DNA from: a virus
Length of the DNA: 46,600 bases
Strand: one strand, 5' to 3'
IMG/VR virus record: IMGVR_UViG_3300002835_000336
Location: 1-46,600 of that record
The notes under the pieces were generated by a model. The model did no database searches, had not been told where the DNA came from, and was given only the letters and a program-made list of their open reading frames with translations. Within the stretch, counting starts at the first letter, position 1. Every line of letters starts with the position of its first letter. A program made the translations under genes and the position numbers. This document shows positions 5,391 through 44,680 of this stretch, piece by piece.

Positions 5391-5741
5391 TTACATTTTT
5401 CTATTTCCTCTTCTGAACGGTCTATCTCCGGTATTATGTCGTGAAGGCATTGACCTCATAATTGGCAATTTCCCTCTACGACCACCCTTTAAGTCATCAA
5501 TATCACCATCAAAGTCATAATATTCATTGTCATCAGTTAAATCATCGTCAGAATCTTCTGAGTATTCACTACCACCCATTCTTAATATTTCGTCTCTCGA
5601 TAAATCAGAAAATTTAACATCACCGAATCTAGGGTGTCCATCGTCCATCCCACCTAATTCATTAATCATATTTTCTTTAATCACTCTTTTTACAATTCTT
5701 TGTAAATCAGATTCACTAAGTCTTATTACTCTTTTTTTCAT
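5391..5741 (-). CDS. Small leader-bearing head-core protein (gp67/gp68 position)
   Basis: This 116-aa protein has one of the clearest copies of the recurring leader: RLSESDLQRIVKRVIKE (residues 7-23), ending in IKE|N, a likely gp21 cut. The mature part has an acidic middle (EYSEDSDDDLTDDNEY) and a basic, Arg-rich, Gly-rich C-terminus. Its place between portal and protease is that of T4 genes 67 and 68, whose products are small charged prohead core proteins cut by gp21. I infer a core or internal protein role. The leader is nearly identical to the C-terminal motif of the 87-aa protein at 39400-39663, far away in the window. Confidence 0.8.
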   Translation of the reverse strand: MKKRVIRLSESDLQRIVKRVIKENMINELGGMDDGHPRFGDVKFSDLSRDEILRMGGSEYSEDSDDDLTDDNEYYDFDGDIDDLKGGRRGKLPIMRSMPSRHNTGDRPFRRGNRKM

Positions 5742-5761
5742 TTTTCTTATTTTTTTATTAG

Positions 5762-6526
5762 TTATATTGATTCTTTTAAATCGTGTAATCTTGTAATATC
5801 AGTAGTAAAAGAATCTATGTTGAAACTATTGTTCAGTAGTTTATCCTTAACTTTTAATAGTTTATCTTTAAGATCTAAATCAGAAGACTCATTTAATTTA
5901 GTATCGATACCATCAATACACTCTCTTTTTAATTTATTGAAAATATTTTCTTTATCTTCACTTGTACCATTAAGTACTGTTTTAATGATTTCTTTTTCTG
6001 ACTCACTAATGTTAGAATATCTAGAATTAAACTTATTTACTGCCAATTTTGTTAACACACTAGATGGTAAATATACACTTTCCGTAACAACCTCTTTTAC
6101 TTCCTCTTTTTCTAACATATTTTTAACTATATAATTAATTGTCTCATTAATTTTTTTAATATTCGAAGGTGTTTTTTCGGTGTTAACTAAATAAGATATT
6201 TTATTATAGAATTCTTGATTTTCTTTTATGATTTTATTACCTTTAAGTAATTTAACGAAAAACTCATTACCTTTTACGATATGTCCTTCGTTTAAACCTT
6301 TAAGTAGTTCAATATTCTCCTTAACGAATTCTTTCGCCTCAACACCATCATCGAACCTACTATTTTGTAAATTACTATAAATTAGATATTGATTCTTTAA
6401 TGTTTTATTTTCTTTAATTGTTTTTAAAAATTTAGAAAATAGTTTTTTACTCTTTTCGTTTTTTTTAATTATAGACTCTACTACTAAATTTTTAAAGGTA
6501 TCTTTAATATTACCAAAATTCTCCAT
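5762..6526 (-). CDS. Helical protein after portal (prohead core candidate)
   Basis: This 254-aa, Lys/Glu/Asn-rich protein is predicted almost wholly helical and has no recognised domain. It is directly downstream of the portal gene and carries its own ATATTTAT element at 6541-6548. By T4 order (20-67-68-21) this is the position of the prohead core proteins. Several (I/L)xE peptides, such as NLVVE|S near residue 17 and KLNE|S near residue 213, would be protease sites. The functional call is from position only. Confidence 0.72.
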   Translation of the reverse strand: MENFGNIKDTFKNLVVESIIKKNEKSKKLFSKFLKTIKENKTLKNQYLIYSNLQNSRFDDGVEAKEFVKENIELLKGLNEGHIVKGNEFFVKLLKGNKIIKENQEFYNKISYLVNTEKTPSNIKKINETINYIVKNMLEKEEVKEVVTESVYLPSSVLTKLAVNKFNSRYSNISESEKEIIKTVLNGTSEDKENIFNKLKRECIDGIDTKLNESSDLDLKDKLLKVKDKLLNNSFNIDSFTTDITRLHDLKESI

Positions 6527-6540
6527 GTTCTTTTTTATAA

Positions 6541-6548
6541 ATAAATAT
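6541..6548 (-). promoter_or_regulatory. Candidate late promoter element
   Basis: ATATTTAT in the gene direction, 15 bases before the start of the 254-aa gene. Confidence 0.45.
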
Positions 6549-11744: not shown

Positions 11745-12599
11745 TTAAAATGCAACTACATTACCTTCTTCATACGCTTTGTAGTTAGGACCTAATTCGT
11801 ATGTGACGTTATTACCACCACCTACTTTTTGTATAATACCCGCCTTATTAACCGCACTCCAAAAGGTAGAATATTGCCCACCCGTATAATGACTACCAAT
11901 AAAGTCTAAAAACCCTCTTTTTGTTTTCTTAGGTATTTCTGGTATATCTTTCATATAATTAATTAAATCCCTAACCATACTACCTTCATCTTTTTGGAGA
12001 GTGAACCCTTTATGTTTAGGTATGATAGTTAACCCATTTTTTTCTGCGAAATCTTTAACTAATGGTTCTATATTTTCCATTCTATTTATACCTAAATGAT
12101 CAGATAGAATGGATGATTGTCTAATCGCTTCTTTAGGTTCATAATTGTTAAACAGATATTGTATGGAATCAAACAATAATCCATCAATTAACTCTTTTAA
12201 GATTTCACTTTTAAAATATTTTGGTATAACACTTTCTAATTTAATTAATTCTTTAATTTTTTCTAAAACGTTTTTATTAGAATCTATTATTTTTTTAGTT
12301 TCTTTTGTAGTTAACAATTCTAAAAGATTATTAATTTTATTTTGGTATTTACTAAGAGTTCTACGATTAATCATTTTAATGTCACTTAAAAGACTATATT
12401 TAAACCAATCATACAATCTATCACTAACTCCCATCATTTTTTCATTAAATTCATATATATCGAAAAAATAATATAGTTTTTCGTCTTCATCTAAGGATCT
12501 AGTATCGTCAAAAAACTTTTGTAATAACCTATCAATGTTAGGGTTTTGATTTTCAGTAATAACTTTTAAATATTGTCTTTCCGTTAGTTTAATCTTCAT
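11745..12599 (-). CDS. Leader-bearing protein with a C-terminal winged-helix-like part
   Basis: This 284-aa protein starts with the recurring leader KLTERQYLKVITE|N (residues 4-17), so gp21 cutting after ITE is predicted. The body is helical and Lys/Leu-rich. The last ~60 residues (from about KRGFLDFIGSHYTGG to GNNVTYELGPNY) look like a compact helix-turn-helix with a beta wing, which would suit DNA binding, but this is only an impression. The start codon overlaps the stop of the upstream 356-aa gene (TAATG), so the two are translationally coupled. No family is recognised. A packaged internal protein is the inference. Confidence 0.72.
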   Translation of the reverse strand: MKIKLTERQYLKVITENQNPNIDRLLQKFFDDTRSLDEDEKLYYFFDIYEFNEKMMGVSDRLYDWFKYSLLSDIKMINRRTLSKYQNKINNLLELLTTKETKKIIDSNKNVLEKIKELIKLESVIPKYFKSEILKELIDGLLFDSIQYLFNNYEPKEAIRQSSILSDHLGINRMENIEPLVKDFAEKNGLTIIPKHKGFTLQKDEGSMVRDLINYMKDIPEIPKKTKRGFLDFIGSHYTGGQYSTFWSAVNKAGIIQKVGGGNNVTYELGPNYKAYEEGNVVAF

Positions 12600-13706: not shown

Positions 13707-15140
13707 TTATAAATATTTATGTAGTTTCGCAACCGTATCGAAGTCACCGTTATCTAATGCATCATCTATCAACCCTTGTATTTCATTAGGTGACATTTCG
13801 GAATAATCTAATTCTTTTGGTTCATCAGTAGTTGGTTCTTCTTCGGTTTCATTATCTAAGTTATCTATAATATCGTCCATATCATCATAACCTGTTTCAT
13901 CGAATATGTCTTCTAAACTATCTGAAGGATCTTCTGCGTGTAAGTCTTTTAATGTTTGGATTACTTCTTTACACTTTTGGCTACCACTTAAAATTTCTTT
14001 CATAAATTCATGAAATTGTTTTGCCGGCAATTTAGTTAATTCTTGAAATAACCATTGTTTCATATCGTAATTTTCAGATCCTACACAATCTAAGAACTTC
14101 TCCCACATACCAGGACCTAATCTCATCCCCCATATTTCACCTTCTGGTGTATCTGCCTTTTTAATTACTTCTGATTGTTCTTCAAAATCTAAGTGACCGT
14201 CCGCCCAATTGATTGCGGATAATTCTAATGTACCTTTAATAAGTTCATGTACTAAAAGCGGGAATATCCAAGCCTTTGCTACTACTACAGGTATCTCGTC
14301 TCCTTCCTCAACATTAACTTTATCCATTTCTTCTTCCTCGTCAGAATCTTCAGGCGATTTAGCCTTTCTCCATTCAATCTTCTCTACACCTCCAGCTTGT
14401 CCTGTCATAGTAGTATCGGGAATCACCCAATATTGGAAATCTGCTAAAGACATTAGCTTACCATATAACCCCATAAGTCTAGGGTCAATAGTATCTAATT
14501 CGTCAGCAACCATATGGAAAATATAGTGTCCTTTTTTAGATGCCCCTTGCATCAAAGCGTTTATGACTCTTCTTTTATCTACCTCCATTTCTAACTCTTC
14601 CATTCTCTCCGCACTTTTTGGGGCTTTTGGTGTCTCAAACTCTGAACCATAGTCTTGTTCATCTTCTTCCTCTTCATCTTGATCATTAAACCCTAAATCA
14701 GTACCGGGAGGTGATAATGTTGCCTCTAACATTTGATCCGGAATGTCAAATTCTTCGGAAACTATATCAATTGCCAATTGTTCTAAAGCTTCTTTATGTC
14801 TGGACTCAATTTGACTAACTTCGCCCATAATCTGAAACATCTGTTGCATCATCATAGGGTTGATGTTTTGGACTCCATGATATCTCTTTACTTTATTAAT
14901 AATTTCTTTAAATCTTTTACTTGCCAGTTTTTCAGAATAATTTTGTGCTTCCGAACCAACAGGTATTGATTTACTCTTACCAAAGATATGTTCACCACTT
15001 CTAAGTCTTTTTTCTAATCCGGGATTCATCCTTTCTGGTTGTTCTGGATCATATTCAATTGCCTCAACGATTTTGTTAAGTCTATATTTTTCTTTTATAA
15101 CTCTATTAGTTACTTCGTTAATGATATTTTTTCTTTTCAT
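13707..15140 (-). CDS. Leader-bearing structural or packaged protein, 477 aa
   Basis: No family is recognised. The N-terminus (MKRKNIINEVTNRVIKEKYR) is amphipathic and contains INE|V, IKE|K and, further on, IVE|A, so it fits the proposed targeting leader with up to three possible cut sites. The middle has an acidic low-complexity linker near residues 150-175, then a folded-looking region (KKGHYIFHMVADELDTIDPR, LADFQYWVIPDTTMTG) and a conserved-looking stretch with GMRLGPGMWEKFLDC. The C-terminus is acidic. It is next to other leader-bearing genes on the same strand with a short gap, so it is likely co-expressed late. Confidence 0.75.
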   Translation of the reverse strand: MKRKNIINEVTNRVIKEKYRLNKIVEAIEYDPEQPERMNPGLEKRLRSGEHIFGKSKSIPVGSEAQNYSEKLASKRFKEIINKVKRYHGVQNINPMMMQQMFQIMGEVSQIESRHKEALEQLAIDIVSEEFDIPDQMLEATLSPPGTDLGFNDQDEEEEDEQDYGSEFETPKAPKSAERMEELEMEVDKRRVINALMQGASKKGHYIFHMVADELDTIDPRLMGLYGKLMSLADFQYWVIPDTTMTGQAGGVEKIEWRKAKSPEDSDEEEEMDKVNVEEGDEIPVVVAKAWIFPLLVHELIKGTLELSAINWADGHLDFEEQSEVIKKADTPEGEIWGMRLGPGMWEKFLDCVGSENYDMKQWLFQELTKLPAKQFHEFMKEILSGSQKCKEVIQTLKDLHAEDPSDSLEDIFDETGYDDMDDIIDNLDNETEEEPTTDEPKELDYSEMSPNEIQGLIDDALDNGDFDTVAKLHKYL

Positions 15141-15887: not shown

Positions 15888-16385
15888 TTACTTTCTTTTT
15901 ATGAATTTTTTAATTAAGTCTTTTTTTGATTCACCAAATGTTGCGGTTCTTATGTTACCTTGTGCGTCTTTTAGACCTACAGTATCATCCCTTTTAATTT
16001 TATCATTTGATAAATCAGATGCCAATTTTGTTGGGTCATCATAGACAGTCATTTGAGTTTCCTCACCTATCATTTCATCCCCCATTTCTAGTTCTGTGTT
16101 AGATTGTAATGGAATGTGTCTCATATAGATGTCTGGGTATAATTTCGCCATTCTTCTTAGAATGTGATCGGGATTTTTTCTCATATATCTAACAACCGCA
16201 GGATCCATATCGTCACCATACTTACCAAACACATCCTCAACACCTCTTTCTTTTGGTGTTGGCTTAAAATCTTTTTTACTATAAGTATCTCTCATCTCAT
16301 AGTCCTCGTCAACATAACGTTCCATTAATTTACGTCTAGTTGCTCTCCTAATCTCTGATTCATATATTCTAATTTTTTTTCCCAT
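15888..16385 (-). CDS. Small leader-bearing protein, 165 aa
   Basis: The leader is IRIYESEIRRATRRKLME|R (residues 5-22), a variant of the (L/I)xE-x-(D/E)-I-R-R pattern with LME as the possible cut. The mature part is Arg/Met/Asp-rich with MRKNPDHILRRMAKLYPDIY (about residues 68-88) and a C-terminal basic tail (ESKKDLIKKFIKRK). No family is recognised. Gaps to both neighbours are 3 bases. Confidence 0.7.
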   Translation of the reverse strand: MGKKIRIYESEIRRATRRKLMERYVDEDYEMRDTYSKKDFKPTPKERGVEDVFGKYGDDMDPAVVRYMRKNPDHILRRMAKLYPDIYMRHIPLQSNTELEMGDEMIGEETQMTVYDDPTKLASDLSNDKIKRDDTVGLKDAQGNIRTATFGESKKDLIKKFIKRK

Positions 16386-16787: not shown

Positions 16788-18826
16788 TATCTAAACATAC
16801 CTCTTCTTCTGTAAGAAGGTTTTGGTTTATCCATATTTGGGTTTTCTGCCTTAGGTCTAGGATCAACTTTAGGACGTTTAATAGTTCTCCACTTATCACC
16901 TTTTCCTGGTCTAGTTGTTGGTGTAGTTATAGTTCTTTCCTTTTCTTTAGTTCCCGGACTATCATTTCTTAAGAAATCGATATCTAAGTCAATGAAGTCT
17001 TCATCGTTATCCATTTGTGCTTTAGGTCTAGGATCAACTTTAGGTCGCTTAGTAGTTCTCCACTTATCACCTTTTCCTGGGGTAGTTGTTGGTCTAGTTA
17101 TAGTTCTTTCCCTTTCTTTAGTTCCTGGATTATTATTTCTTAAGAAATTGATATCTAAGTCAATGAAGTCATCACCTTTACCCATCTCAAAATCTAATTT
17201 ACCATCATCGTTGTTATCCATATCTAAACGATTAGGGATACCATCGAAGTCTCTGTCTAAATCACCTGTGGTGGATAAGTAACCTTGACCAGTTGCAATT
17301 GCGTCCATTACAGACATATCTTCTTCATCTATATTACGTCTACTATCTTTTCTTCCTTTACGTAACATTTTGAAGTCTTCCGCATCGATTCTACCATTAT
17401 TGTTTTTATCTAAATTTCTTTGTTTACCGGCAAGTTTTTCGTATACCATTTCACTTTCGCTAAGTTCACATTTCATACACATACCTTCGTTCATTCTACT
17501 ACCACATTGTTCACAAAGTTCTCTTCTTTCTTTAATAACGTTTCTAAGTGTTTTTTTAGTTTCTCTTCTTAAGAAAGATTCCATTAATTGTTTTTTAGAA
17601 AAAACTCTACCTTCGTTTTTTTCTTTTTTACCTTCTTTATATTTTAGTGTAACATCACCACATTTGCAGATACCTTTTTCGTGTAACATATCCATTTGTT
17701 TTTTAGAAATGAATATACATTCTTTATCAGTTTCGGCAATTTTATCTAACAATATTGAATCTTCAACACCTGATTCTCTATATACTAAACACTTATCATC
17801 ACATTCACAGATACCTTTTTTGTGTAACATATCCATTTGTTTTTCTGTGATGTTAAGAACTTCTTTTTTATCATCACCATCTTCTTTGTCCTCACCTTCA
17901 GATAGTTCATCACCACTTTCTTCCGGTGTTTTTTCAGTGGAACCCATATCGAACTCATCTACTTCTTCATCACCTCCCTTATCGAACTCGTCTGAAACTT
18001 CTTCGTCTTCTCCACCTTCTAATTTTGCAATAATATCTTCTTTATCTCCTTCATCCATTTCATCTAAATGCATCGCTGAGATAATTGAATTAATTACATA
18101 TTTTTCTAAGTCAGAATCCGCTACATCCATATCTCTTAACAACTGTCCGATTTTACCGGTATATTTTTGTATCTTTTTAGTGTTATCATCACCTTCTTCA
18201 TCACCCATATCCTCTTCAGTTTCTTCTTCACCGAAATCAACATCTGCGATGTCTCCTCCCATATCAACATTAACTTCAGTCTCATCTTCTACCTCATCTT
18301 CCACAGGTGCTTCTACTTTAGGGGTATTAACCTTAAGAACTTTCTTTTGTTCTTCTAAATCTGCGTCAGATATAATTTCTTTTTCTCCTTCAGTTTGATC
18401 TTCTTCATCTTCTTCCATAACAAATCCAAAACCTACCCCACCACCAAAGGCAACACCGTCAGACTCAAAAATATTAGTATTGTTTTCGATACCATAAGAC
18501 TCATTCAACATATCAAACTTCATATTTAAGTGTTTGATTGCTTCCGCATATGACTTATATCTTTCATCATATTTGTTTTGTAGTCCTCCGACATAACTAA
18601 AGTCTTCTGATAAGAATCGTCCTGAAGTTTTATTTGAAGTTTTAATAAAGTAATCGTGATTTTCTCTAATGATACCATAAACAACGTCATTAGGTCCTTT
18701 TTTGATTAATTCTAATTCAGAATATGATTTACTTTCATTTAAAGTATTCATTTTCCCCATAAGATCTAACATCCTATTAAGTTTGTCTTGACCTTTTAAT
18801 GTTTTTGGATTTACGTTTTTTCTCAT
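16787..18826 (-). CDS. Large modular leader-bearing protein with EF-hand-like and Cys-ribbon parts
   Basis: This 679-aa protein has a leader ending GKMNTLNE|S near residue 33. After an N-terminal domain comes a long acidic region (about residues 130-330). Two homologous segments follow, each with KQMDMLH(K/E)KGIC(E/K)C. Next is a four-Cys ribbon (CEQCGSRMNEGMCMKC) that may bind zinc, then two Ca-binding-like Asp loops (DKNNNGRIDAEDF and DMDNNDDGKLDF), typical of EF-hand or dockerin loops. The last ~130 residues hold two near-identical ~55-residue repeats (PGTKERERTI..., GKGDKWRT(T/I)KRPKVDPRP). It looks like a mosaic packaged or structural protein. It starts the minus-strand run that continues to 15153. 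No family is assigned. Confidence 0.75.
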   Translation of the reverse strand: MRKNVNPKTLKGQDKLNRMLDLMGKMNTLNESKSYSELELIKKGPNDVVYGIIRENHDYFIKTSNKTSGRFLSEDFSYVGGLQNKYDERYKSYAEAIKHLNMKFDMLNESYGIENNTNIFESDGVAFGGGVGFGFVMEEDEEDQTEGEKEIISDADLEEQKKVLKVNTPKVEAPVEDEVEDETEVNVDMGGDIADVDFGEEETEEDMGDEEGDDNTKKIQKYTGKIGQLLRDMDVADSDLEKYVINSIISAMHLDEMDEGDKEDIIAKLEGGEDEEVSDEFDKGGDEEVDEFDMGSTEKTPEESGDELSEGEDKEDGDDKKEVLNITEKQMDMLHKKGICECDDKCLVYRESGVEDSILLDKIAETDKECIFISKKQMDMLHEKGICKCGDVTLKYKEGKKEKNEGRVFSKKQLMESFLRRETKKTLRNVIKERRELCEQCGSRMNEGMCMKCELSESEMVYEKLAGKQRNLDKNNNGRIDAEDFKMLRKGRKDSRRNIDEEDMSVMDAIATGQGYLSTTGDLDRDFDGIPNRLDMDNNDDGKLDFEMGKGDDFIDLDINFLRNNNPGTKERERTITRPTTTPGKGDKWRTTKRPKVDPRPKAQMDNDEDFIDLDIDFLRNDSPGTKEKERTITTPTTRPGKGDKWRTIKRPKVDPRPKAENPNMDKPKPSYRRRGMFR
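16820..17160 (-). repeat. Tandem ~170-base coding duplication
   Basis: Two head-to-tail copies in the C-terminal part of the 679-aa gene encode FIDLD(I/L)xFLRN...PGTKE(R/K)ERTI...GKGDKWRT...KRPKVDPRPKA. Nucleotide identity is high, so the duplication is recent. Limits are approximate. Confidence 0.7.
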
Positions 18827-19223: not shown

Positions 19224-20018
19224 TTATAATGTTTTAATTCTTAACATAGACTCATCTAATGTTAAAGATTTATCATATGAACTATTCTCAATTTCACTTA
19301 ATTTATCTAAATACATGGTTCTCCTTAATACTTTAAATGCGATATTCTCAAACGAATACTCACCTTCACGATCTAAACCAGTTTGTCTCATTTTTTTGAT
19401 TTTTTCTTTTAGGTTTTTAATCATTCTGATAGTTTTATCGTATTCCTCATTTTTATACATATAATAGACATCATGTATTGTGTCTATAATATTATTAACT
19501 TTTTGTTCTACTTTTTTTGCGTCTATTTCTTTTTTAGTTGAGTCAGGTTGTACTACCCATCCATCCCATAGAATAGAATATACACCACTAGAAACGTGTG
19601 GTTCTTCAGTATCTTGCATATATAATTCCACATCATAACCTTTAATAGTTATGTCGTGTTTTTCATTCCATAAATTCTTTTTGGAGTTGAAATATTCTTT
19701 AACTAACTCTTCGTTTTCGTCAACTTCACCAAAATCTACTAATATATGTAAGTCTACATCTGAAAATTTTGACCAATTAAAGTTCGCCAAACTACCAGTT
19801 AAAATAATGTCATTTATGTCTACCCAACTTACATTTAATGTTTCAAAGAAATCATCTGCAATCATAAGAAGTCTCCTTCTAATATCCTCATACATATGTT
19901 GTTCTTTATCGAATATTTTTGGGTTAAGTGTGGATCTCACTTCAAATGAAGAGAAGTCAATGTTTTCTTTTTGGATGATATCATTGATATCTTGTTCAGT
20001 AATTTTTATAATATCCAT
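19224..20018 (-). CDS. Nucleotidyltransferase-fold protein with targeting leader
   Basis: This 264-aa protein has the polymerase-beta-type nucleotidyltransferase signature: LTGSLANFNWSKFSDVDLHI (GS, then D-x-D), around residues 68-90, with a third acidic residue likely in YDVELYMQD. Such enzymes move a nucleotide onto protein, RNA or small molecules; the substrate cannot be told. The leader is KITEQDINDIIQKE|N (residues 5-18); the first motif is clear, but the final site is IQKE rather than a strict (I/L)xE. If packaged, it would be ejected and could modify a host target at once, as T4 Alt does by ADP-ribosylation. An ATATTTAT element is at 20032-20039. Confidence 0.82.
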   Translation of the reverse strand: MDIIKITEQDINDIIQKENIDFSSFEVRSTLNPKIFDKEQHMYEDIRRRLLMIADDFFETLNVSWVDINDIILTGSLANFNWSKFSDVDLHILVDFGEVDENEELVKEYFNSKKNLWNEKHDITIKGYDVELYMQDTEEPHVSSGVYSILWDGWVVQPDSTKKEIDAKKVEQKVNNIIDTIHDVYYMYKNEEYDKTIRMIKNLKEKIKKMRQTGLDREGEYSFENIAFKVLRRTMYLDKLSEIENSSYDKSLTLDESMLRIKTL

Positions 20019-26244: not shown

Positions 26245-26400
26245 TACCTTTTACCATAATAATATCTATTTTCTATTATATCTTCTACGTGACTCAGAAA
26301 TTTGATTTCTTTTTTCTCTTTTTACTTCATTAACGATTCTTTCGATCATCTCAACCATTTCTGATTCCGTAAGTCTGATTGTTTTTTTACCTTTATTCAT
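26245..26400 (-). CDS. 51-aa peptide consisting mostly of the targeting leader
   Basis: This short ORF reads MNKGKKTIRLTESEMVEMIE and continues RIVNEVKREKRNQISESRRR, ending RRIIENRYYYGKR. It carries the recurring (L)TES-x-x-V-x-M-I-x-R-I leader and then only ~25 mostly basic residues, with IIE|N as a second possible cut. T4 internal proteins are also small and basic. It sits 38 bases upstream of the 545-aa gene's stop on the same strand. Confidence 0.6.
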
Positions 26401-26438: not shown

Positions 26439-28076
26439 TTATATTGACCACATTATCCCCTGACAGAACTCATCTTTCATCTTGTAGAATTCTTCTTTAT
26501 TTTCACCTTCTAAACCATTAGTGTCGAAAGAAAGTCTAACGATGGTAGCACCTTCTTTAGTACACATTTTCTTTAATGTTTCGTTGTTAACTTTTTTAAT
26601 CGGGTTACCACCTGCAGATATTCCAAATACAGTTTTTAATTTTTCATATCCCTCACCAGGTATTTCCACAATATTATTATTACTTAATGAAAGCATTACC
26701 AATGTGTCCAATGGTAAGTAATCCGCAGGTGGGAATTTATCAAGGCCACAATTTATGGCTGCTAAATGACTTAGTTTTTTGAATCCTGATAAGTCTGGTA
26801 GAGTTTTAATCTTCATATCAGAAAAGTCTACCATCTCAACAGTATCCTTATCTAAATACTCTGTAACATCGACATCATCAACATTATCTAATAACCAATT
26901 TAAGTATTTGTTTTGTTTTAATGGTACAGTTTGTTCTGACGCTAATTTCTTAATATTCTTAACACCTTCTTCATACGCTTCACCGCTTATGTGTTCTTTC
27001 GCGGATCCACCAAACTTATTTAAATATTTAATATATGAACTCTCCATAAGTCCCGATCCTTTTCTTACGTCCATCTCTACTAACGCACCCAATTCTTTCT
27101 TAAAGAAATCCCTAAGTCCTGAAAATCTATTTAAAACACTATCTAACTTACTGCTGTTTTCTATAGATGAGTTATTTTTATCGTGTATTTGATTAGATTC
27201 AAAATGGAATTGTAGTGGATATAAACCACCTTCATCATCACCATCGAAAAGTTTTTTAGGCATAATTACATAATAATCGGAAAGTGACCCATCAGGTTTT
27301 GGGTTATTTCTTCTATAACTATCAAAATAACTGTTACCTTCTCTTCTAGTACACCAAGAGGCTAAACCACCTAAAGGTTCACAACTCGAATCCCTTGTTA
27401 ATGGTGTATATACTAATACGTCATTATCTCGATATGCTAGTCTTGCCTCACCTAAGTCAACGAATTTTTTCAAACTTTTCCAAATCTTACTTTCCCCATC
27501 TTCGTCTTCATCTTCGGCACCAACAAAGGGACTCACTACACTATATAGGTGTGCTAGATCGCTGTATTGGTTGATGTCTGTCACATTTTGAGGTGCGTTA
27601 GGTCTATTAGGTGCACTTCTTTTAAATACTTTTTTACTTTTAACTTTATCGAAAACACCTAAAAATTCATTCGCTTCAGGTAAATCTTCCGCTAAAAATC
27701 TAACCGCTTGTTCGAAATCATTTTCGTTAATATGATTCATAAACACTTTAATCATCCACTGAACATATTGTTTATTGTTCGATGGGTCGGCATCTACAAT
27801 GTCTTGAAATATTTCTGGCGATAATTTTATTGATTGTTTACCATTTCTACTAGTAACAATATATGCGATATCGATACCCTCATGATTTTCGATAGGTTTA
27901 ACGTTAATTCTTCTATTTCTACCACCTCCCGGTTCTCTTTCATCTTCTCTTTCATTTTCACCCTCTACCGCTTGGTCTAATGTTTCTGGATCAATTACAT
28001 TTTGATTTCTTAAGAATTCTACCCTATCTTCTTTAAGTAATATCTTATATTGATTTTCAGATATAATGTATTTCAT
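26439..28076 (-). CDS. Leader-bearing protein with a WCT-motif domain and leucine-rich repeats
   Basis: The leader is YIISENQYKILLKE|D (residues 3-16), with a good LKE|D cut. The middle domain holds GGLASWCTRREGNSYFDSYR (about residues 233-252), a W-C-T...Y pattern met in phage accessory proteins, followed by YYVIMPKKLFDG. The C-terminal ~140 residues form leucine-rich repeats (VEMVDFSDMKIKTLPDLSGF, LVMLSLSNNNIVEIPGEG) suited to protein binding. If packaged, this could be an ejected effector acting on a host protein. An ATATTTAT element is at 28094-28101. No exact family is assigned. Confidence 0.75.
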   Translation of the reverse strand: MKYIISENQYKILLKEDRVEFLRNQNVIDPETLDQAVEGENEREDEREPGGGRNRRINVKPIENHEGIDIAYIVTSRNGKQSIKLSPEIFQDIVDADPSNNKQYVQWMIKVFMNHINENDFEQAVRFLAEDLPEANEFLGVFDKVKSKKVFKRSAPNRPNAPQNVTDINQYSDLAHLYSVVSPFVGAEDEDEDGESKIWKSLKKFVDLGEARLAYRDNDVLVYTPLTRDSSCEPLGGLASWCTRREGNSYFDSYRRNNPKPDGSLSDYYVIMPKKLFDGDDEGGLYPLQFHFESNQIHDKNNSSIENSSKLDSVLNRFSGLRDFFKKELGALVEMDVRKGSGLMESSYIKYLNKFGGSAKEHISGEAYEEGVKNIKKLASEQTVPLKQNKYLNWLLDNVDDVDVTEYLDKDTVEMVDFSDMKIKTLPDLSGFKKLSHLAAINCGLDKFPPADYLPLDTLVMLSLSNNNIVEIPGEGYEKLKTVFGISAGGNPIKKVNNETLKKMCTKEGATIVRLSFDTNGLEGENKEEFYKMKDEFCQGIMWSI

Positions 28077-28120: not shown

Positions 28121-28672
28121 TCAATCCTTAATGTATTGTGAGTTTTTGAATAATTCATATTCTACATTACGCCTATTTTTTAATCCTTTTGATCTATAGG
28201 TTTTAATTAGTTCTGCTGCATCATCATAGTTACCTTTTTTAAGTTTTTGAATGAAATCAGATGTTCTCACTCCCTCACACCCACTATTAATAACTAATGA
28301 AATGAGTGCCTCATATTCATTCAGTTTAAGTTTATATCCCTCATGATTTGTTTCCTTCCAAGAATTTAAAAATGTTTTTACACATTTTGCGGCCTCATTC
28401 ACGTCCTTAATAAATAGATCATTTGCCTTACTTTTAGATATTACGTTACCCTCATACGCTTCTTCACCTGTATGTCCATAACCAATAGTCCAAACGCCTA
28501 CGGTATCTTTGTATGCCTTTAATAACGGATCTCCTTTTTTGGTTGGACTACCCTCATGCCACCTTAACCAATCCCAAAAATTTTGACTGGCGATTAATTT
28601 AGTGCCATCACTTCTATTGTCACTTTCAATTATTAATCTTTTTAATTGATTTTCAGTAATTATAATTTTCAT
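28121..28672 (-). CDS. GH24 (T4-type) lysozyme with targeting leader
   Basis: This 183-aa muramidase would cut the MurNAc-GlcNAc bond of peptidoglycan. Catalytic region: WHEGSPTKKGDPLLKAYKDT then VGVWTIGYGHT, with the Glu, Asp and Thr of the GH24 E-D-T triad. The C-terminal helical lobe (LNEYEALISLVINSGCEG) matches the family. The first 17 residues are not a secretion signal but the recurring leader, IIITENQLKRLIIE|S, with a good IIE|S cut. So this enzyme is likely to be packed in the head or virion rather than made for lysis, perhaps for entry or delivery. It faces the HNH gene with shared ATATTTAT elements. Confidence 0.9.
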   Translation of the reverse strand: MKIIITENQLKRLIIESDNRSDGTKLIASQNFWDWLRWHEGSPTKKGDPLLKAYKDTVGVWTIGYGHTGEEAYEGNVISKSKANDLFIKDVNEAAKCVKTFLNSWKETNHEGYKLKLNEYEALISLVINSGCEGVRTSDFIQKLKKGNYDDAAELIKTYRSKGLKNRRNVEYELFKNSQYIKD

Positions 28673-29798: not shown

Positions 29799-30200
29799 AT
29801 GAAACTATTGGATTTATTATTAGAAACTGTATCGGTACCATTTAAAGAAAGTTGTGTTTTGACAATAACAAACTCTGATGGTGAAGAAATCGTAGTAAAT
29901 TGTGAAGTTCCAACTACAGACGAAGAGAAAATGACAGGTTTAATGTATAGAGATAATCTTTGTGATAATTGTGGAATGTTTTACGATTATGTTGATGGTG
30001 GGTTTTGGATGAAAAATGTTAATTTCCCAATTGAGATGATTTTCATAAATAATAATCAGATTGTTGACATTAAAAGGGCGAAAGCGCAAGATGAAACAAC
30101 AATATACTCTTCCGTAGAATCAAATGGTAATTTAGAAGTAAATGATGGTTTCAGTAAATCAAATAATATCTCTATTGGGGATAAAGTTTATATATCATAA
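29799..30200 (+). CDS. DUF192-family protein with T4-like short leader
   Basis: This 133-aa protein starts MKLLDLLLE|T, about the length and form of the T4 internal-protein leader (ten residues ending in IxE). The rest is a DUF192 domain: EEKMTGLMYRDNLCDNCGMF then FWMKNVNFPIEMIFINNNQI, with the family's G-L-M...GM-F...W-M-K-N signature. DUF192 has no settled biochemical role. It overlaps the 3' end of the convergent metallopeptidase gene by 13 bases. Confidence 0.8.
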   Translation: MKLLDLLLETVSVPFKESCVLTITNSDGEEIVVNCEVPTTDEEKMTGLMYRDNLCDNCGMFYDYVDGGFWMKNVNFPIEMIFINNNQIVDIKRAKAQDETTIYSSVESNGNLEVNDGFSKSNNISIGDKVYIS

Positions 30201-31210
30201 ATCTCAGGATATTGTTTCCCAAAAACCCTAAGTAACTCACCCGCCTTTGCGTTCGCCTCATCTTCCCAAGGTGACCCATCTTCACCCTCATCAGGATTAC
30301 CTCTTAAATCACCTCTTTCATTTTGTTTATGATGTACCATTTCATGTGCAATGGATCTAATTATATCTGGAGTTGCCCTATCTCTTGTTAGGACATTAAT
30401 CTCACCATCTATCATATCATAATTCGCCAATGTCTCAATGTCATCACCATTATCAGTTAAATTAACTCTAAATCCATCACCTAATGATAATTCCCTTTTT
30501 CCGAATTCAATAAAATCACCAACTATACTTTCATTCAGTGTTTCATTATCTGAAGGTATAATCATTTTAATACCCATATCTTTTAACTTATATGGTAATT
30601 TTCTGAAAAATTCGTTTACTACATAATCCATAGAAAAAGAGTCATCAATGTCGTAAACACTATTAAGTTTTCCCATAATTGAGATTCGGTTAGCGGAACT
30701 CTCACACCCAAATAATTCATATCCATCTTTTAATAACGTTCTCCATACAGTACAATTAAAAATAAACAATTTACTTTTTAGTAAAATATCATCTTCCAAT
30801 AAAACCCATTCACCCGCATCTCCGAAATCTTCATTATAATCCAATACCCCCTTTTCCACCAAAGTATCTAACCAATCATAAACAATTTCATAATAAAATT
30901 CATCTGAATTATATTGTTGTTTTGGGTTATTTATTCTGAAATAATATCCTTCATCATATACGTCTTCAGGATCATAATGATAGTCCCACCCTAATTGTTT
31001 TATATATTTATCTTCATGTCTTATTCTTTCGAGATCGATATCAAAAACACCAATATCTTCCATCTCACTAACAGATCCAAACGAAGTCATGTTATTTGAC
31101 GGTGAAATATATATAGTTTCTAATAAAGAATTAACCACACCATCTAAAAACTTTTGATGGTTCGGGTGTGTAAACTCCTCTTTTAATATTTTCCTAATTA
31201 AATCTTTCAT
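30188..31210 (-). CDS. Zinc-metallopeptidase-like protein with leader
   Basis: This 340-aa protein has MKDLIRKILKE|E as a short leader. The C-terminal third contains IIRSIAHEMVHHKQNERGDL, an HExxH zincin motif, and a downstream WEDEANAKAGELLRVF that offers the third metal ligand Glu. The N-terminal ~220 residues are acidic and unrecognised. It could be an ejected protease acting on host proteins, or a virion peptidase. The start overlaps the stop of the 150-aa gene (ATGA), so the two are coupled. Confidence 0.8.
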   Translation of the reverse strand: MKDLIRKILKEEFTHPNHQKFLDGVVNSLLETIYISPSNNMTSFGSVSEMEDIGVFDIDLERIRHEDKYIKQLGWDYHYDPEDVYDEGYYFRINNPKQQYNSDEFYYEIVYDWLDTLVEKGVLDYNEDFGDAGEWVLLEDDILLKSKLFIFNCTVWRTLLKDGYELFGCESSANRISIMGKLNSVYDIDDSFSMDYVVNEFFRKLPYKLKDMGIKMIIPSDNETLNESIVGDFIEFGKRELSLGDGFRVNLTDNGDDIETLANYDMIDGEINVLTRDRATPDIIRSIAHEMVHHKQNERGDLRGNPDEGEDGSPWEDEANAKAGELLRVFGKQYPEIYDI

Positions 31211-33525: not shown

Positions 33526-33955
33526 ATTGGTTTCCGGGGTTATTAGAGGGTCTATCACCCCCCCTTTCACTTGAAACTGAAGCATCTAAATCTTCTATAA
33601 TAATTTCATTTGTATCGATAACCATTTGATAAGCGTCCATTGCATCTGCAATATGTGTACTCAGTCTATCGAAGGAAACATTTGTCATCTTAGACCTATT
33701 AGATTTGTCAACTATCTTCTGTAACTCTTTCTTAGTCTCTACTAATTCCTCATTTAATTCGTTTATTGCACCACTTAATTGGTAAGCGTATTTGGTGTAG
33801 TCGTATCCTGTGCCTTTAAACATACCCCCAATACCCTTAAAGCCAGACATAATTCTTCTACCTAGTCCTTCGTCTAATCTTTTAGTATGTTCTATAATTC
33901 TATTTAAATCTGATTCACTTAGATTTATTATTTCTCCGTTCTTTTTAATTTTCAT
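33515..33955 (-). CDS. Small leader-bearing protein, 146 aa
   Basis: The leader is INLSESDLNRIIEHTKRLDE|G, a longer form ending in LDE|G near residue 29. The mature part has a Gly-rich start (RIMSGFKGIGGMFKGTGYDY) and a helical body with a coiled-coil look (LNEELVETKKELQKIVDKSN). Unrecognised. The Gly-rich part might pass or insert into a membrane, but no strong hydrophobic helix is seen. Confidence 0.72.
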   Translation of the reverse strand: MKIKKNGEIINLSESDLNRIIEHTKRLDEGLGRRIMSGFKGIGGMFKGTGYDYTKYAYQLSGAINELNEELVETKKELQKIVDKSNRSKMTNVSFDRLSTHIADAMDAYQMVIDTNEIIIEDLDASVSSERGGDRPSNNPGNQFTQ

Positions 33956-38414: not shown

Positions 38415-38651
38415 TTAATATCTACCACTAACATACATATATAATACTTCAGGTATCATAACACATTGTGACATATTACCATTTTTATCTATACAATCAA
38501 TAACCTCTAAACTTCTAACAATATTTTTAATATTCATAGGCGCCTTCATAGTTACATTCTCTATATATTGTTTAGTGTATAATTTATTCGAATCATAATA
38601 TGACTCAGTTAAAATTTTATTATATTGTGATTCTGTAATTCTTATTTTCAT
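38415..38651 (-). CDS. Small leader-bearing protein, 78 aa
   Basis: Leader KIRITESQYNKILTE|S (residues 2-16) matches the 284-aa and lysozyme leaders, with a good LTE|S cut. The ~62-residue cargo (VRSLEVIDCIDKNGNMSQCV) has two Cys and is unrecognised. It sits in a run of three leader genes (38082-38962). Confidence 0.72.
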   Translation of the reverse strand: MKIRITESQYNKILTESYYDSNKLYTKQYIENVTMKAPMNIKNIVRSLEVIDCIDKNGNMSQCVMIPEVLYMYVSGRY

Positions 38652-38677: not shown

Positions 38678-38962
38678 CTACTCACTCACCATTGAGTTGT
38701 AGTTTCCGTAATTTGGAGTTTGTCCTTTGGACGACACCCAATCCGAAAATAAATCAGTATATTCATTTGTCGTTAGTTGATTAATTAAATCACCACCCAT
38801 ATGTCTCTCAAACTCATTTACAATGTCGGAAGATAAATCATCATAACCAAATTTATATTTCATATCTTTTATTACTTTTTCCATATTAACTATAGACTCA
38901 CCCAACAAACGTTTATTTGATAGTTCAATAATTAATCTTTTTTGTTTTTCAATTCTTCCCAT
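38678..38962 (-). CDS. Small leader-bearing protein, 94 aa (GRIEKQKR type)
   Basis: The leader MGRIEKQKRLIIELSNKRLL is followed by GE|S, nearly the same as the 106-aa protein's. Cargo (MKYKFGYDDLSSDIVNEFER and on) is acidic, helical and unrecognised. A perfect palindromic late element (38968-38985) lies just upstream and is shared with the divergent nuclease gene. Confidence 0.72.
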   Translation of the reverse strand: MGRIEKQKRLIIELSNKRLLGESIVNMEKVIKDMKYKFGYDDLSSDIVNEFERHMGGDLINQLTTNEYTDLFSDWVSSKGQTPNYGNYNSMVSE

Positions 38963-39399: not shown

Positions 39400-39663
39400 T
39401 TATTTTCCACCAATCACTCTTTTAACTATTCTACGTAAATCAGATTCAGTTAACTTATAATACTTAGTATCCTTATCAATACTACCCATATCTCTCATAA
39501 CAACACCAGACTTAGTTAAACCAATAACATCAACAAATTTATCCATCATTAATAGAATATTGGTTTCTGTCATTTCGATCCCCAATGATTTTAATACGGA
39601 TATAGACATTCTTCTAAGTTCACCTATTGTATATCCCCTTCTTTCGTCTAACCTTCTTTTCAT
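39400..39663 (-). CDS. 87-aa protein with the targeting motif at the C-terminus
   Basis: The N-terminus is MKRRLDE|RRGY, a short (LDE) form. The C-terminus carries KLTESDLRRIVKRVIGGK, almost the same as the N-terminal leader of the 116-aa protein at 5391 but as the last 18 residues. So the motif works, or once worked, as a movable tag at either end. The middle is helical (LRRMSISVLKSLGIEMTETN). An ATATTTAT element lies at 39679-39686. Confidence 0.72.
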   Translation of the reverse strand: MKRRLDERRGYTIGELRRMSISVLKSLGIEMTETNILLMMDKFVDVIGLTKSGVVMRDMGSIDKDTKYYKLTESDLRRIVKRVIGGK

Positions 39664-41628: not shown

Positions 41629-41634
41629 AATATA

Positions 41635-41663
41635 ATAATACGTATAATATATCATAATGTCAA
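41635..41663 (-). promoter_or_regulatory. Promoter of the ~220-base ncRNA
   Basis: TTGACA (minus strand of 41658-41663), 17 bases, TATTAT (41635-41640). The left half also fits the TTG-N20 rule but the -7 box is TATTATTA, a weaker match. Confidence 0.5.
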
Positions 41664-41689
41664 TAGTTTAGATTATAAAATTTATCATT

Positions 41690-44680
41690 TCATATGGTAT
41701 TGTTTTCATTAATGGAACTACTTGGTCTGTTGTTCACAATATTACCATCTGAATCTTCATAATAAATTTTGTTATTGTTTTTGTCAAATTCTCGTTTTAT
41801 CCAATAACCATCTGAATTTTCATAATAAATTTTGTTATTGTTTGAATCATATTCTTGTTTTGACCAATAACCATCTGAATCTTCATAATAAATTAAATTA
41901 TTTTTTTTATCAAATTCTCGTTTCTCCCAATCACCATCTGAATCTTCATAATAAATTTGGTTATTGTTTGAATCAAATATATAGTTATTACTTAACCTTA
42001 CTTCTTGATTATATACTTTTGATAATATCCTATCCCATAATTCTTCAGGTACTTCATTAACCCTTAAATTATAGATATAAGGTGTTCTAATCATATTACT
42101 TAATCCATTAATGTATTTCTCTTCTGGGGTAATATCTATATTTTCATTTAATGGGTTACTTGGTCTGTTGTCTATAATTTTACCATCTGAATCTTCAAAA
42201 TAAATTCTGTTATTGTTTGAATCATATTCTTGTTTATACCACTCACCATTTGAATTTTCATAATAAATTCTGTTATTGTTTGAATCATATTCTCGTTTTA
42301 TCCAAAAACCATATGAATTTTCATAATAAACTTCATTATTATTTGAATCATATTCTCTTTTTTCCCAATAACCACTTGAATTTTCAAAATAAATTTCGTT
42401 ATTTTTTTTATCAAATTCTCGTTTCTCCCAAAAACCATCTGAATCTTCCCAATAAATTTGGTTATTGTTTGAATTATTTATTCCATTACCTTGTACCCTT
42501 ACTTCTTGATTATATACTTTTGATAATATTCTATCCCATAATTCTTCAGGAGTATCTGTAACTTTTAAATTATAGAAGTAAGGGATATTAATAAATTTTA
42601 CAATACCATTAACGTATTTTTCTTCTGGGTCAATATTTTCGTTAATATTTCTTTTATCAATAATATAACCATTTGAATTTTCAAAATAAATTAAGTTATT
42701 ATTTTTATCAAATTCTTGTTTTCCCCAATAACCATCTGAATCTTCAAAATAAATTTTGTTATTGTTTTTATCAAATTCTCGTTTAGACCAATGACCATTT
42801 AATCTTTCATAATAAATTTCATTATTGTTTGAATCATATATATAATTTTCACTTACACTTACTTCTTGATTATATACTTTTGATAATACTCTACCCCATA
42901 ATTCTTTTGGTACTTCATTAACTCTTAAATTATAAAAATAAGGTGGTTTAATTAATTTACTTAATCCATTAATAAATTTCTCTTCTGGAACTATATTTTC
43001 ATTTAATGGGTTACTTGGTCTGTTATCTAAAATATAACCATATGAATCTTCAAAATAAATTTCATTATTGTTTGAATCATATTCTTTTTTCTCCCAATAA
43101 CCATTCGACTTTTCATAATAAATTGAGTTATTGTTTGAGTCATATTCTTGTTTCTCCCAAAAACCATTTGAATTTTCAGAATAAATTCTGTTATTGTTTT
43201 TGTCAAATTCTTGTTTCTCCCAATCACCATCTGAATCTTCAAAATAAAGTAAGTTATTGTTTTTATCATATTCTTTTTTTATCCAATAACCATTTAAATA
43301 TTCACGATAAATTTCATTATTGTTTGAATCAAATAGATAATTATTATATTCTCTTACTTTTTGTTTAAACACTTTTGATAATATTCTATTCCATAGTTCT
43401 TTCGGTACTTCATTAACACTTAAATTATAGATATAAGGTAATCTAATAAAATTTACAATTCCATTAATAAATCTTTGTTCTGGGTTAATATCTACATTTT
43501 CATTAATGGAATTACTTGGTCTGTTATCTTTAATTTCACCATCTGAATTTTCATAATAAATTATGTTATTGTTTGAATCATATTCTTGTTTTGACCAATA
43601 ACCATCTGAATCTTCATAATAAATTGAGTTATTGTTTGAATCAAATATATACTTATAACGTCCACTTACCCTTACACTTACTTTTTGATTAAATATTTTT
43701 GATAATATTCTATTCCATAGTTCTTTCGGTACTTCATTAACACTTAAATTATAGATATAAGGTAATCTAATAAAATTTACAATTCCATTAATAAATTTCT
43801 CTTCTGGGGTAATATCTATATTTTCATTAATGGAACTACTTGGTCTGTCATCTCTAATTGTACCATCTGAATCTTCATAATAAATTATGTTATTGTTTTT
43901 ATCAAGTTCTCGTTTCTCCCAATAACCATTTGAATTTTCGTAATAAATTCTGTTGTTGTTTTTATCAAATTCTCGTTTCTCCCAACCACCCTTTTTTGTT
44001 TCATAATAAATTTGGTTATTGTTTGAATTATATATATAATTATCCCTTACACTTACTTCTTGATTAAATTTCTTTGACAATATTCTATTCCATAAATGTT
44101 CTGGAGTATCTGTAACTTTTAAATTATAGAAGTAAGGGATATTAATAAATTTTACAATACCATTAATAAATTTCTCTTCTGGGGTAATATCTATATTTTC
44201 ATTAATGGAACTATTTGGTCGATTATCAATAATATAACCATTTGAAGTTTCAAAATAAACTTCATTATTATTTGAATCATATTCTCTTTTTTCCCAATCA
44301 CCATCTGAATTTTCATAATAAATTGGATTATTGTTTTTATCAAATTCTCGATTTATCCTATAACCATCTGAATTTTCATAATAAATTTCGTTATTGTTTT
44401 TATCATATTCTCGTTTCCACCAAAAACCATTTGAATCTTCAAGATAAATTTCATTATTGTTTTCATCATATATATAATTTTCACTTACACTTACACTTAC
44501 ACTTACTTTTTGTTTAAACACTTTTGATAATATTCTATCCCATAATTCTTCAGGTACTTCATTAACCCTTAAATTATAAAAATAAGGTAATTTAATAAAA
44601 TTACTAATACCATTAATAAATTTTTCTTCTGGTGTAATATCTATATTTTCGTTGATAATATTCTTTATGGTTATCTTCAT
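41690..44680 (-). CDS. 996-aa protein of seven large modules with 26 short beta repeats
   Basis: The leader MKITIKNIINE|N starts a seven-fold array. Each module has a ~45-residue helical head (NIDITPEEKFINGI, then FYNLRVNEVPEELWDRILSK) and then 4, 3, 2, 5, 3, 5 and 4 copies (26 in all) of a ~21-residue repeat of the type YDSNNNEIYYENSDGYWEKR, with a last copy ending (I/L)xDxRPS. The repeat is like MORN or YD repeats in form. Every module starts (I/L)NE|N, and the protein ends with INENNTI, a lone remnant. If gp21 cuts at these sites the gene makes seven separate proteins. The repeat number suggests active recombination. An ATATTTAT element is at 44700-44707. Confidence 0.85.
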   Translation of the reverse strand: MKITIKNIINENIDITPEEKFINGISNFIKLPYFYNLRVNEVPEELWDRILSKVFKQKVSVSVSVSENYIYDENNNEIYLEDSNGFWWKREYDKNNNEIYYENSDGYRINREFDKNNNPIYYENSDGDWEKREYDSNNNEVYFETSNGYIIDNRPNSSINENIDITPEEKFINGIVKFINIPYFYNLKVTDTPEHLWNRILSKKFNQEVSVRDNYIYNSNNNQIYYETKKGGWEKREFDKNNNRIYYENSNGYWEKRELDKNNNIIYYEDSDGTIRDDRPSSSINENIDITPEEKFINGIVNFIRLPYIYNLSVNEVPKELWNRILSKIFNQKVSVRVSGRYKYIFDSNNNSIYYEDSDGYWSKQEYDSNNNIIYYENSDGEIKDNRPSNSINENVDINPEQRFINGIVNFIRLPYIYNLSVNEVPKELWNRILSKVFKQKVREYNNYLFDSNNNEIYREYLNGYWIKKEYDKNNNLLYFEDSDGDWEKQEFDKNNNRIYSENSNGFWEKQEYDSNNNSIYYEKSNGYWEKKEYDSNNNEIYFEDSYGYILDNRPSNPLNENIVPEEKFINGLSKLIKPPYFYNLRVNEVPKELWGRVLSKVYNQEVSVSENYIYDSNNNEIYYERLNGHWSKREFDKNNNKIYFEDSDGYWGKQEFDKNNNLIYFENSNGYIIDKRNINENIDPEEKYVNGIVKFINIPYFYNLKVTDTPEELWDRILSKVYNQEVRVQGNGINNSNNNQIYWEDSDGFWEKREFDKKNNEIYFENSSGYWEKREYDSNNNEVYYENSYGFWIKREYDSNNNRIYYENSNGEWYKQEYDSNNNRIYFEDSDGKIIDNRPSNPLNENIDITPEEKYINGLSNMIRTPYIYNLRVNEVPEELWDRILSKVYNQEVRLSNNYIFDSNNNQIYYEDSDGDWEKREFDKKNNLIYYEDSDGYWSKQEYDSNNNKIYYENSDGYWIKREFDKNNNKIYYEDSDGNIVNNRPSSSINENNTI

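Follow-up and report, generated by a model that had tools for sequence, protein, structure and literature searches.

Short leaders on unrelated proteins of a T4-like phage record, and their probable role in targeting to the capsid

The window and its leader-bearing genes

The subject of this report is a stretch of viral DNA of 46,600 nucleotides (the window: positions 1 to 46,600, the whole of IMG/VR virus record IMGVR_UViG_3300002835_000336), together with a family of short leader peptides with which a series of its proteins begin. The record probably represents part of a larger genome. Its T4-like head genes encode a gp23-like major capsid protein, a gp22-like scaffold or core protein, a gp21-type prohead protease, a gp20 portal and a terminase (Table 1). 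The leaders form a family, stand on unrelated cargo proteins, share with gp23 a signature at residues P3 and P1 before a predicted cut, and are linked to the protease family Peptidase_S77 (S77), to which the gp21 of the window belongs. Below, a slash marks a predicted cut, G and L numbers denote records and loci of the comparison set, and papers given by PubMed Central (PMC) number are cited from excerpts.

A preliminary description of this DNA had placed the processing position of the local gp23 at LLNE/S and had recognized a gp21 gene. The former, a predicted site, agrees with the N-termini of relatives, and the latter is confirmed by PF03420 (65.6 bits, cut-off 27). The same description listed 18 leader-bearing proteins. 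All 18 start positions match open reading frames (ORFs), that at 26400 merely an ORF of 44 amino acids (aa). Fourteen of the 18 stand; four (20018, 37491, 35468 and 38402) fail or are undecided. Two further features are absent from that list: the leader helix recurs at the C-terminus of the protein encoded at 39400-39663, and boundaries resembling cut sites occur within the protein encoded at 41690-44680.

Table 1. Head genes, leaders and related features of the window (HMM-A and HMM-B are the two leader profiles described in the text)
Feature	Coordinates	Strand	Remarks
gp23-like major capsid protein	3..1442	-	truncated at contig end; predicted propeptide site ..SLLNE/STS
Acidic gp22-like scaffold/core protein	1482..2837	-	between gp23 and gp21; 126 D+E and 67 K+R in 451 aa
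gp21-type prohead protease (Peptidase_S77)	2937..4781	-	gene interrupted by intein with LAGLIDADG domain
Leader MKKRVIRLSESDLQRIVKRVIKE/ of 116-aa protein 5391-5741	5673..5741	-	HMM-B 42.9 bits
gp20 portal	6569-8479		PF07230 264.6 bits
Terminase with endonuclease insert	8543-11713	-	LAGLIDADG insert
Leader MKIKLTERQYLKVITE/ of protein 11745-12599	12552..12599	-	HMM-A 21.7 bits
Leader ending KIVE/AIEYDP of protein 13707-15140	15063..15140	-	
Leader ending KLME/ of protein 15888-16385	16320..16385	-	
31-residue N-terminal stretch ending TLNE/SKSY of protein 16787-18826	18734..18826	-	
Nucleotidyltransferase	19224..20018	-	leader-like helix, no (I/L)xE closing; PF01909 E 2.7e-4, 21.7 bits (cut-off 21)
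Leader-like basic 44-aa ORF	26266..26400	-	HMM-B 13.5 bits; orthologs in L103, L098, L109
Leader MKYIISENQYKILLKE/ of protein 26439-28076	28029..28076	-	HMM-A 24.6 bits
Leader MKIIITENQLKRLIIE/ of phage lysozyme 28121-28672	28625..28672	-	HMM-A 25.6 bits; PF00959 1.4e-24
Leader MKLLDLLLE/ of DUF192 protein	29799..29825	+	PF02643 3.1e-20
Leader MKDLIRKILKE/ of protein 30188-31210	31178..31210	-	ILKE in 3/3 orthologs
Leader with NLSESDLNRIIE, closing RLDE/G, of protein 33515-33955	33869..33955	-	HMM-B 15.6 bits
Leader MKIRITESQYNKILTE/ of 78-aa protein 38415-38651	38604..38651	-	HMM-A 29.3 bits
Leader ending RLLGE/S of protein 38678-38962	38897..38962	-	LGE/S in 4/4 orthologs
C-terminal leader-helix copy KLTESDLRRIVKRVIGGK-stop on protein 39400-39663	39403..39456	-	HMM-B 34.6 bits; no P1 Glu
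Predicted polyprotein	41690..44680	-	996 aa; 11-aa leader MKITIKNIINE/, then seven repeated modules (108-167 aa) bounded by (I/L)NE/N

Seven of the 18 leaders (5741, 33955, 26400, 38651, 28672, 28076 and 12599) are supported by profile hidden Markov models (HMMs) derived from other records. Neither the window nor any record near-identical to it went into these profiles, HMM-A (24 seeds) and HMM-B (60 sequences), and all seven members score above the noise, for which 20 shuffled proteomes gave top scores of 5.3 bits (HMM-B) and 9.3 bits (HMM-A). The HMM-A seeds contain orthologs of 12599, 28076 and 38651, so that the HMM-A matches at these three positions show conservation, not independence; they contain none of the lysozyme.

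In seven others (15140, 16385, 18826, 29799, 31210, 38962 and 44680), orthologs keep the closing (I/L)xE as the rest of the leader drifts. LME is present in the six full-length near orthologs shown of 15888-16385, and a remote ortholog in L315 has an LTESEL leader. All nine orthologs shown of 16787-18826 read LNE/S or LTE/S. Three near orthologs of the DUF192 protein close with LLE, LSE or ISE; two remote homologs (L188, L308) have no such leader start. Among the HMM-supported members, two orthologs of 33515-33955 read KVDE/G and NVEE/G, and some orthologs of 11745-12599 start differently (MKVIINNRQHLLLVE..). The ORF at 26266-26400 is little beyond a leader, and its second site (ISE/S, VTE/S or ITE/S) is better conserved than its first.

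As for the remaining four, orthologs of the protein starting at 20018 keep the helix, yet have Q, N, K, S or E at P3, and the L/I-X-E rule is not obeyed. The protein at 37491 has one ortholog, and the next (I/L)xE past the helix comes not before residue 35 (RLTE, RITE). For 35468 and 38402, no ortholog was found among the comparison loci.

As for the bare motif, 27 of 50 hand-listed window genes have an (I/L)xE that ends at residue 8-35, against 18.5 +/- 3.1 after shuffling (6 of 2000 shuffles reach 27). The excess is mild, and the bare motif, which is weak evidence, was not taken as the main evidence; the extended leader is strong evidence.

Forms and spread of the leader

The preliminary description spoke of one leader; at least four forms exist. 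These are an LTExQ form with Glu near position 12, an LTESDL form with Glu at 16, a gut form with Glu at 20, and a basic helix of 9-11 residues such as MKxxIKxILKE. The commonest, M-x3-5-[RK]-LTESDL-xR-IV-KR-V(I/L)-x-E, is widespread in IMG/VR. There, a degenerate DNA pattern for LTESDLxxIV matched at least 120 stretches, against two for the same codons in reverse order. Eighty loci taken from these matches hold 82 copies. An ATG lies within 20 residues upstream in 80 of the 82 (L141 is internal; L147 and L165 are C-terminal), and 76 have at most 40 open codons upstream. Glu stands at position 16, with I, L, V or M at 14, in 74 copies, and at position 20 in four. Of the other four, L141 is a chance match of internal position, L147 and L165 are C-terminal copies, and L198 is an ORF of 35 codons that lacks an ATG.

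The search pattern left P1 to P3 open. From the 82 hits, 75 lay near an ATG in ORFs of at least 35 residues; de-duplication left 64, and setting aside four rows of the longer gut form, whose Glu comes four residues later, gave a table of 60 non-redundant leaders. P1 (position 16) is Glu in all 60. P3 (position 14) is Ile in 49, Leu in 8, Met in 2 and Val in 1, and thus I or L in 57 of 60, P2 (position 15) is free, and position 17 is mainly Q, N, E or S. A looser search of all comparison loci gave 350 candidates, chance ORFs included. Counted from the L of LTE, their closing Glu lies most often at 16 (168 candidates), then at 12 (40), 11 (31), 15 (12) and 20 (9); another 64 had none at positions 10-24.

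The same leader is found on unrelated cargoes, often on clustered neighbouring genes, and codons vary between copies as the peptide is kept. Two of three leader pieces are strongly amphipathic (helical moments 0.69, 0.69 and 0.29). By HMM, N-terminal copies number 17 in G001 (166 kb), 12 in G002, 10 in G040 (295 kb), 6 in G004 and 6 in the window. Control loci totalling 588 kb gave one match, which looks genuine, and a further control record gave none over 100 kb. A tblastn search with three leaders of 20-24 aa against 50,697 phage records returned no match at E 10, and the open-licence PMC literature, with subscription papers outside the search, yielded no paper on an LTESDL/IVKRVI leader; virion data for a phage bearing this leader were likewise sought and not found.

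Linkage to the prohead protease

Records carrying the leader were searched for S77, which was found in 24 of 79 (11/40 + 13/39; the repeat L171 was left out, and G028 (L141), G034 (L147) and G052 (L165) were kept). Among leader records of at least 100 kb, a threshold set after the record lengths had been seen, 13 of 13 have S77, twelve entering via N-terminal copies and G052 via its C-terminal copy, and 13 of 13 have gp23. The control was drawn from records found with unrelated patterns, 28 of 69 control loci (records of at least 30 kb, not screened whole for leaders); here S77 was found in 2 of 28, and in 2 of the 6 of at least 100 kb. For the large records, the comparison of 13/13 with 2/6 gives a Fisher p of 0.004.

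Overall, gp23 goes with S77. It is present in 25 of 26 records searched (24 with S77, two not S77-tested), the exception being a 17-kb fragment, and in 0 of 19 leader records of at least 30 kb without S77. In this, the 19 look like fragments missing the head block. Four such fragments without head genes carry HMM-detected copies and share ORFs (at least 100 aa) with G001 or G040, relatives in which S77 is present: G059 has 6 copies and shares 16 of 108 ORFs, G018 2 copies and 18 of 92, G089 1 copy and 51 of 122, and G084 1 copy and 20 of 94. A control record, read in part, shares at most 3 of 104.

Signs of probable cleavage

T4 gp21 cuts C-terminal to the Glu of L/I-X-E, and propeptides of 10-19 residues target the internal proteins of T4 to the core (PMC9026906). 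In the T4 record, ipII and ipIII both start MKTYQEFIAE/, and ipI has ITE/. Compared by eye, the T4 leaders and those described here have the same architecture and no clear sequence match, the sequences being very short. At the N-terminal processing position of gp23, relatives of the window read LLNE/S, LLSE/S, LINE/A, LINE/S, LISE/A or LIYE/A, and Flavobacterium phage immuto reads IVSE/A (alignment of 40 rows, two without coverage of the site). Leaders and gp23 share this site pattern, and thus P3 and P1 agree between leader and shell protein.

One gene family places two leaders before one mature protein. Orthologs of 13707-15140 among the relatives shown read MKRKNIINEVTKRVLNEKLRINRITE/AIEYDP or similar; that in G004 reads MKNKTIRITESQLKKLTKKRVSE/AIEYDP, an LTE-type leader. 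The G004 and window proteins are 72% identical over their whole length, and the close match starts directly after the Glu. Judged from the alignment, the leader has been exchanged, or has diverged beyond recognition.

The predicted polyprotein at 41690-44680 contains eight (I/L)xE motifs, where shuffling predicts 14.8. All eight fall at boundaries: one past the leader, six between modules and one past the last module. The modules are, of course, related by repeat, so that this is one arrangement kept rather than eight independent events. Relatives of the polyprotein include five genes in L063, each with its own ILRE/ leader, one in L096 with IIKE/, and a 356-aa protein in L104 whose second repeat comes after NINE/S. 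A similar relation is seen elsewhere: in L165 and L315 a domain inside a protein is preceded by PLNE/DLAVWFG, and the L197 homolog begins after an N-terminal MISE/DLGVWFG.

The leader helix also occurs at C-termini, in three cases: 39400-39663 with its relatives in L147 and L316, L165/L315, and L197. These proteins end in GGK, DGK, SSK or KDNQVGND. The P1 Glu is present in 0 of 3 C-terminal cases, against 60 of 60 N-terminal leaders; L165 and L197 share a domain, and the cases are not fully independent. Nothing follows the helix at a C-terminus, so a site is unneeded there; alternatively, the LTE/S inside the helix could serve.

Cargo and upstream motifs

With the first 26 residues removed, 201 leader-bearing proteins (75 aa or longer) fell into 135 cargo groups (BLASTP, E 1e-3), some of which remote homology would merge; L011-L012 and the window are outside this sample. 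A consensus of the 135 representatives retains the leader and almost nothing more. Pfam matched at most 19 of them, in 17 families at E 1e-3, and at least 116 had no match. Families unrelated to the cell wall include UPF0227, DUF6576 and zinc ribbons, and DUF192 in the window is another.

In the window the cargo comprises the phage lysozyme, a DUF192 protein, a protein with an HExxH motif and unknowns, together with the nucleotidyltransferase, whose leader is putative. The lysozyme label of the preliminary description agrees with PF00959, and its nucleotidyltransferase just passes the Pfam cut-off and lacks the closing (I/L)xE in its leader. The putative peptidase, 30188-31210, has an HEMVHH stretch and no Pfam match. 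Labels of OmpA and leucine-rich repeat (LRR; PF12799, protein 26439-28076) fell below the Pfam cut-off and are not supported. An anti-defence role of the cargo was considered; PADLOC matches were weak (best E 1.6e-5), and no claim is made.

Two motifs lie upstream of 19 of 51 called window genes, TAnnTTTG and ATATTTAT, about tenfold commoner upstream of genes than elsewhere. TAnnTTTG, the host-type motif known as the Bacteroidota promoter, precedes none of the 44 leader genes counted in four records and 52 of the 430 other genes (p 0.009). The comparison of upstream motifs is weak support, as the late role of ATATTTAT is presumed and the 44 include the C-terminal copy 39400-39663, entered via an internal ATG.

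Other features of the record

The S77 halves of gp21 lie at 3033-3491 and 4413-4607, with the intein between (Intein_splicing, 38.8 bits). The gp21 homolog of G001 (159346-159813) has an open frame of 234 aa, roughly as long as a gp21 without interruption. A ClpA/ClpB-like ATPase at 22867-26064 (+) has an intein inside its Walker A motif (GDPG/C...HN/TGKTT, the slashes here marking the intein); its frame is broken, with four in-frame stops between two ORFs. With gp21 and the terminase, this makes three interrupted genes in 46 kb.

Related portals are encoded by 552 IMG/VR stretches, of which 80 were kept for comparison. Among phage records, the best matches of the portal are Microcystis phage Mel-JY01 (42% over 64%) and immuto (35.5% over 69%). 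In the bS21 phages, whose predicted hosts are Bacteroidetes, the genes for terminase large subunit (TerL), capsid, protease and portal form a single block (PMC9723584). A Bacteroidota host is likely because of the kinship with immuto, the bS21 phages and the promoter motif.

Homologs of the nucleotidyltransferase at 19224-20018 occur in 45 phage records (T4-like cyanophages, Molly, Cr30, Lak and huge phages). They start MNLKTLVE/T in Maribacter phage Molly, MRKFSQLLE/D in Caulobacter phage Cr30 and MRHLESRTKHLISE/L in Synechococcus phage S-CRM01; four Lak or uncultured huge-phage homologs inspected show no clear leader. In Molly (NC_062751; L413, L420, L421), nine different proteins have K-x-L(V/I)E-(S/T) in their first 20 residues, and the remaining ORF sequence has four inner matches. 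The N-terminal motif occurs once in immuto and once in Mel-JY01.

Capsid targeting and its alternatives

We consider it very probable that the leaders act as T4-type capsid-targeting propeptides, cut by the phage's own gp21-type protease, with the cargo ejected together with the DNA. The capsid-targeting idea of the preliminary description is favoured by the P3/P1 signature, the gp23 site, the co-occurrence with S77, the change of leader at the cut, the polyprotein boundaries and the C-terminal copies without Glu; its single leader, four of its 18 members and its OmpA and LRR labels are not supported. As a mechanism, the basic amphipathic N-terminal helix would attach its protein to the core of the prohead while the shell is still open, the docking partner probably being the acidic gp22-like scaffold. 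The gp21-type protease would then cut after (I/L)-x-Glu, removing the helix and leaving the mature protein free in the head, from which it would leave with the DNA at ejection and be delivered to the next host. The protein at 1482-2837 is thus a candidate docking partner; the scaffold-position protein of immuto matches proteins of G001 and G040.

Several observations weigh against this explanation. No S77 match was obtained in 55 of the 79 leader records, 36 of which are shorter than 30 kb, and between 75 and 100 kb S77 is found in four of nine records and missing from five. Two cultured relatives with gp21, immuto and Mel-JY01, have 0 leader HMM matches. The motif ATATTTAT, whose late-promoter role is presumed, is not enriched before leader genes (15/44 vs 105/430 others, p 0.20). 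In the L104 relative of the polyprotein, which has four more such motifs, and in one L063 gene, (I/L)xE also falls off the module starts; since some relatives carry it elsewhere, the strict boundary placement is a trait of the window polyprotein. Among the 17 cargo Pfam families, nine are related to wall or peptidoglycan (glucosaminidase, lysozymes, M23, VanY, LysM, PG_binding, SH3), and 14 of the 25 PHROGs matches shown (of 40) are called endolysin. Finally, the leader is not confined to phage records. In 84,980 prokaryote genomes the LTESDLxxIV pattern gave 21 loci, 16 in frame, of which about six are leader-like by inspection (L349, L355, L359, L363 and L366, with L356 less certain); these come from genomes of Prevotellaceae and other Bacteroidales. 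Five genomes carry one or two copies each, and one solitary copy lies in the complete Segatella baroniae chromosome, with no phage gene recognized by eye in 8 kb around it. S77 was not matched in the 10 bacterial genomes tested, in a search that matched nowhere and so does not prove absence. The preliminary description expected the leader only where gp21 is present, and took the same leaders in phages without a prohead protease as counting against capsid targeting. The large records agree with that expectation, 13 of 13; the rare solitary Prevotellaceae copies, without S77 match, run weakly counter to it. Our reading is that the bacterial copies are strays from phages.

Other explanations must be weighed on the same facts. 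The leader might be a docking helix that is never cleaved and that ties accessory proteins to scaffold, portal or tail, the Glu serving helix structure or binding. The amphipathic character of two of the three leader pieces suits such a helix, and the C-terminal copies without closing Glu imply a binding independent of that residue. Against it stand an invariant P1 Glu beside a free P2, the same site in gp23, differing leaders ahead of one site and one mature protein, and (I/L)NE between repeated modules, and we regard this explanation as unlikely. Quite improbable, in our judgement, is a role in envelope targeting or control unconnected to the head, for example one keeping lysozymes inactive until lysis. 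The abundance of wall-related Pfam families and endolysin calls speaks for it; wall hydrolases in the head would fit entry, and a role in lysis fits them too, which keeps this alternative alive. T7 gp16 is a precedent for a wall hydrolase in the head. Few representatives match Pfam at all, however, non-wall families are among the cargo, no signal-peptide core is seen by eye, and the gp21-type site and the S77 linkage would have to be coincidence.

The shared 5' stretch might, lastly, be mainly a recombination module for gene swapping in a variable region, its peptide being of little function. One would then expect unrelated cargoes to bear the same leader, often where their genes lie side by side, as is seen; codons that differ where the peptide is kept, an invariant Glu, the C-terminal occurrence and cut-site-like motifs between modules are hard to reconcile with it, and we give this explanation hardly any weight.

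If the capsid-targeting explanation holds, the virus probably packs into its head a protein set of unusual size and variety, and a simple sequence signature would predict the virion-borne proteins of a large group of uncultured phages. The tag would be a second capsid-targeting signal with which T4-like heads might be loaded, and with the polyprotein a prohead protease would be put to an unusual use. T4 IP1-IP3 are anti-restriction factors (PMC12373910), and thus the 135 cargo groups are candidates for acting in the first minutes of infection.

A broader proposal, on which we are evenly divided, is that the leader is a transferable packaging code, used by a clade of T4-like phages that probably infect Bacteroidota. 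A protein of any kind that gained a helix of about 16-24 residues ending in (I/L)xE would become head cargo; the helix would be removed at an N-terminus, would act as an uncut anchor at a C-terminus, and between polyprotein modules the site would split the chain into effectors, other T4-like lineages, such as that of Molly, having dialects of their own. Under such a code, the injected proteins, for the most part unknown, would together make up hundreds of families.

Comparison with known systems

The closest parallel is the capsid-targeting sequence of the T4 internal proteins (IPI-IPIII) and Alt. There too, a short N-terminal leader closing with L/I-X-E stands on otherwise dissimilar proteins, and gp21, gp23 and gp20 have homologs here (PMC9026906, PMC12373910). 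The T4 internal proteins share the leader only, and related phages are reported to have ten or more of them (PMC12373910). The leaders described here differ in sequence, form a longer helix and come in several lengths (Glu near 12, at 16 or at 20). T4 has three internal proteins plus Alt, whereas G001, G002, G040, G004 and the window have 6-17 HMM-detected N-terminal copies; the 135 cargo groups of the sample, the C-terminal copies and the predicted polyprotein are further differences.

In the phiKZ-like giants (SPN3US gp245, phiKZ gp175), a gp21-related protease cuts after a short motif ending in Glu, and many head or ejection proteins are processed (PMC10052503, PMC5694885, PMC9026906). SPN3US, however, has nine substrates, most with N-terminal propeptides of 111-254 residues (PMC10052503), against leaders of 9-31 residues here, and the excerpts on these giants do not describe a short helical tag shared by dozens of unrelated proteins. 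An N-terminal sequence of P1 DarB likewise sends the protein that carries it into the head; the signal is described on DarB, and the excerpted account describes no tag common to many cargoes (PMC9024508).

Maribacter phage Molly resembles the present system in having a short leader common to nine proteins and an annotated prohead protease gene, and differs in having its own leader sequence and in being a cultured phage. The excerpts of PMC8776804 contain no mention that we found of the Molly leader. Molly, with Maribacter forsetii DSM18668 as host, offers a culturable test system for a leader dialect. What is new in the present case is the leader family, its scale, its C-terminal and polyprotein forms and its dialects; the principle is already known from T4.

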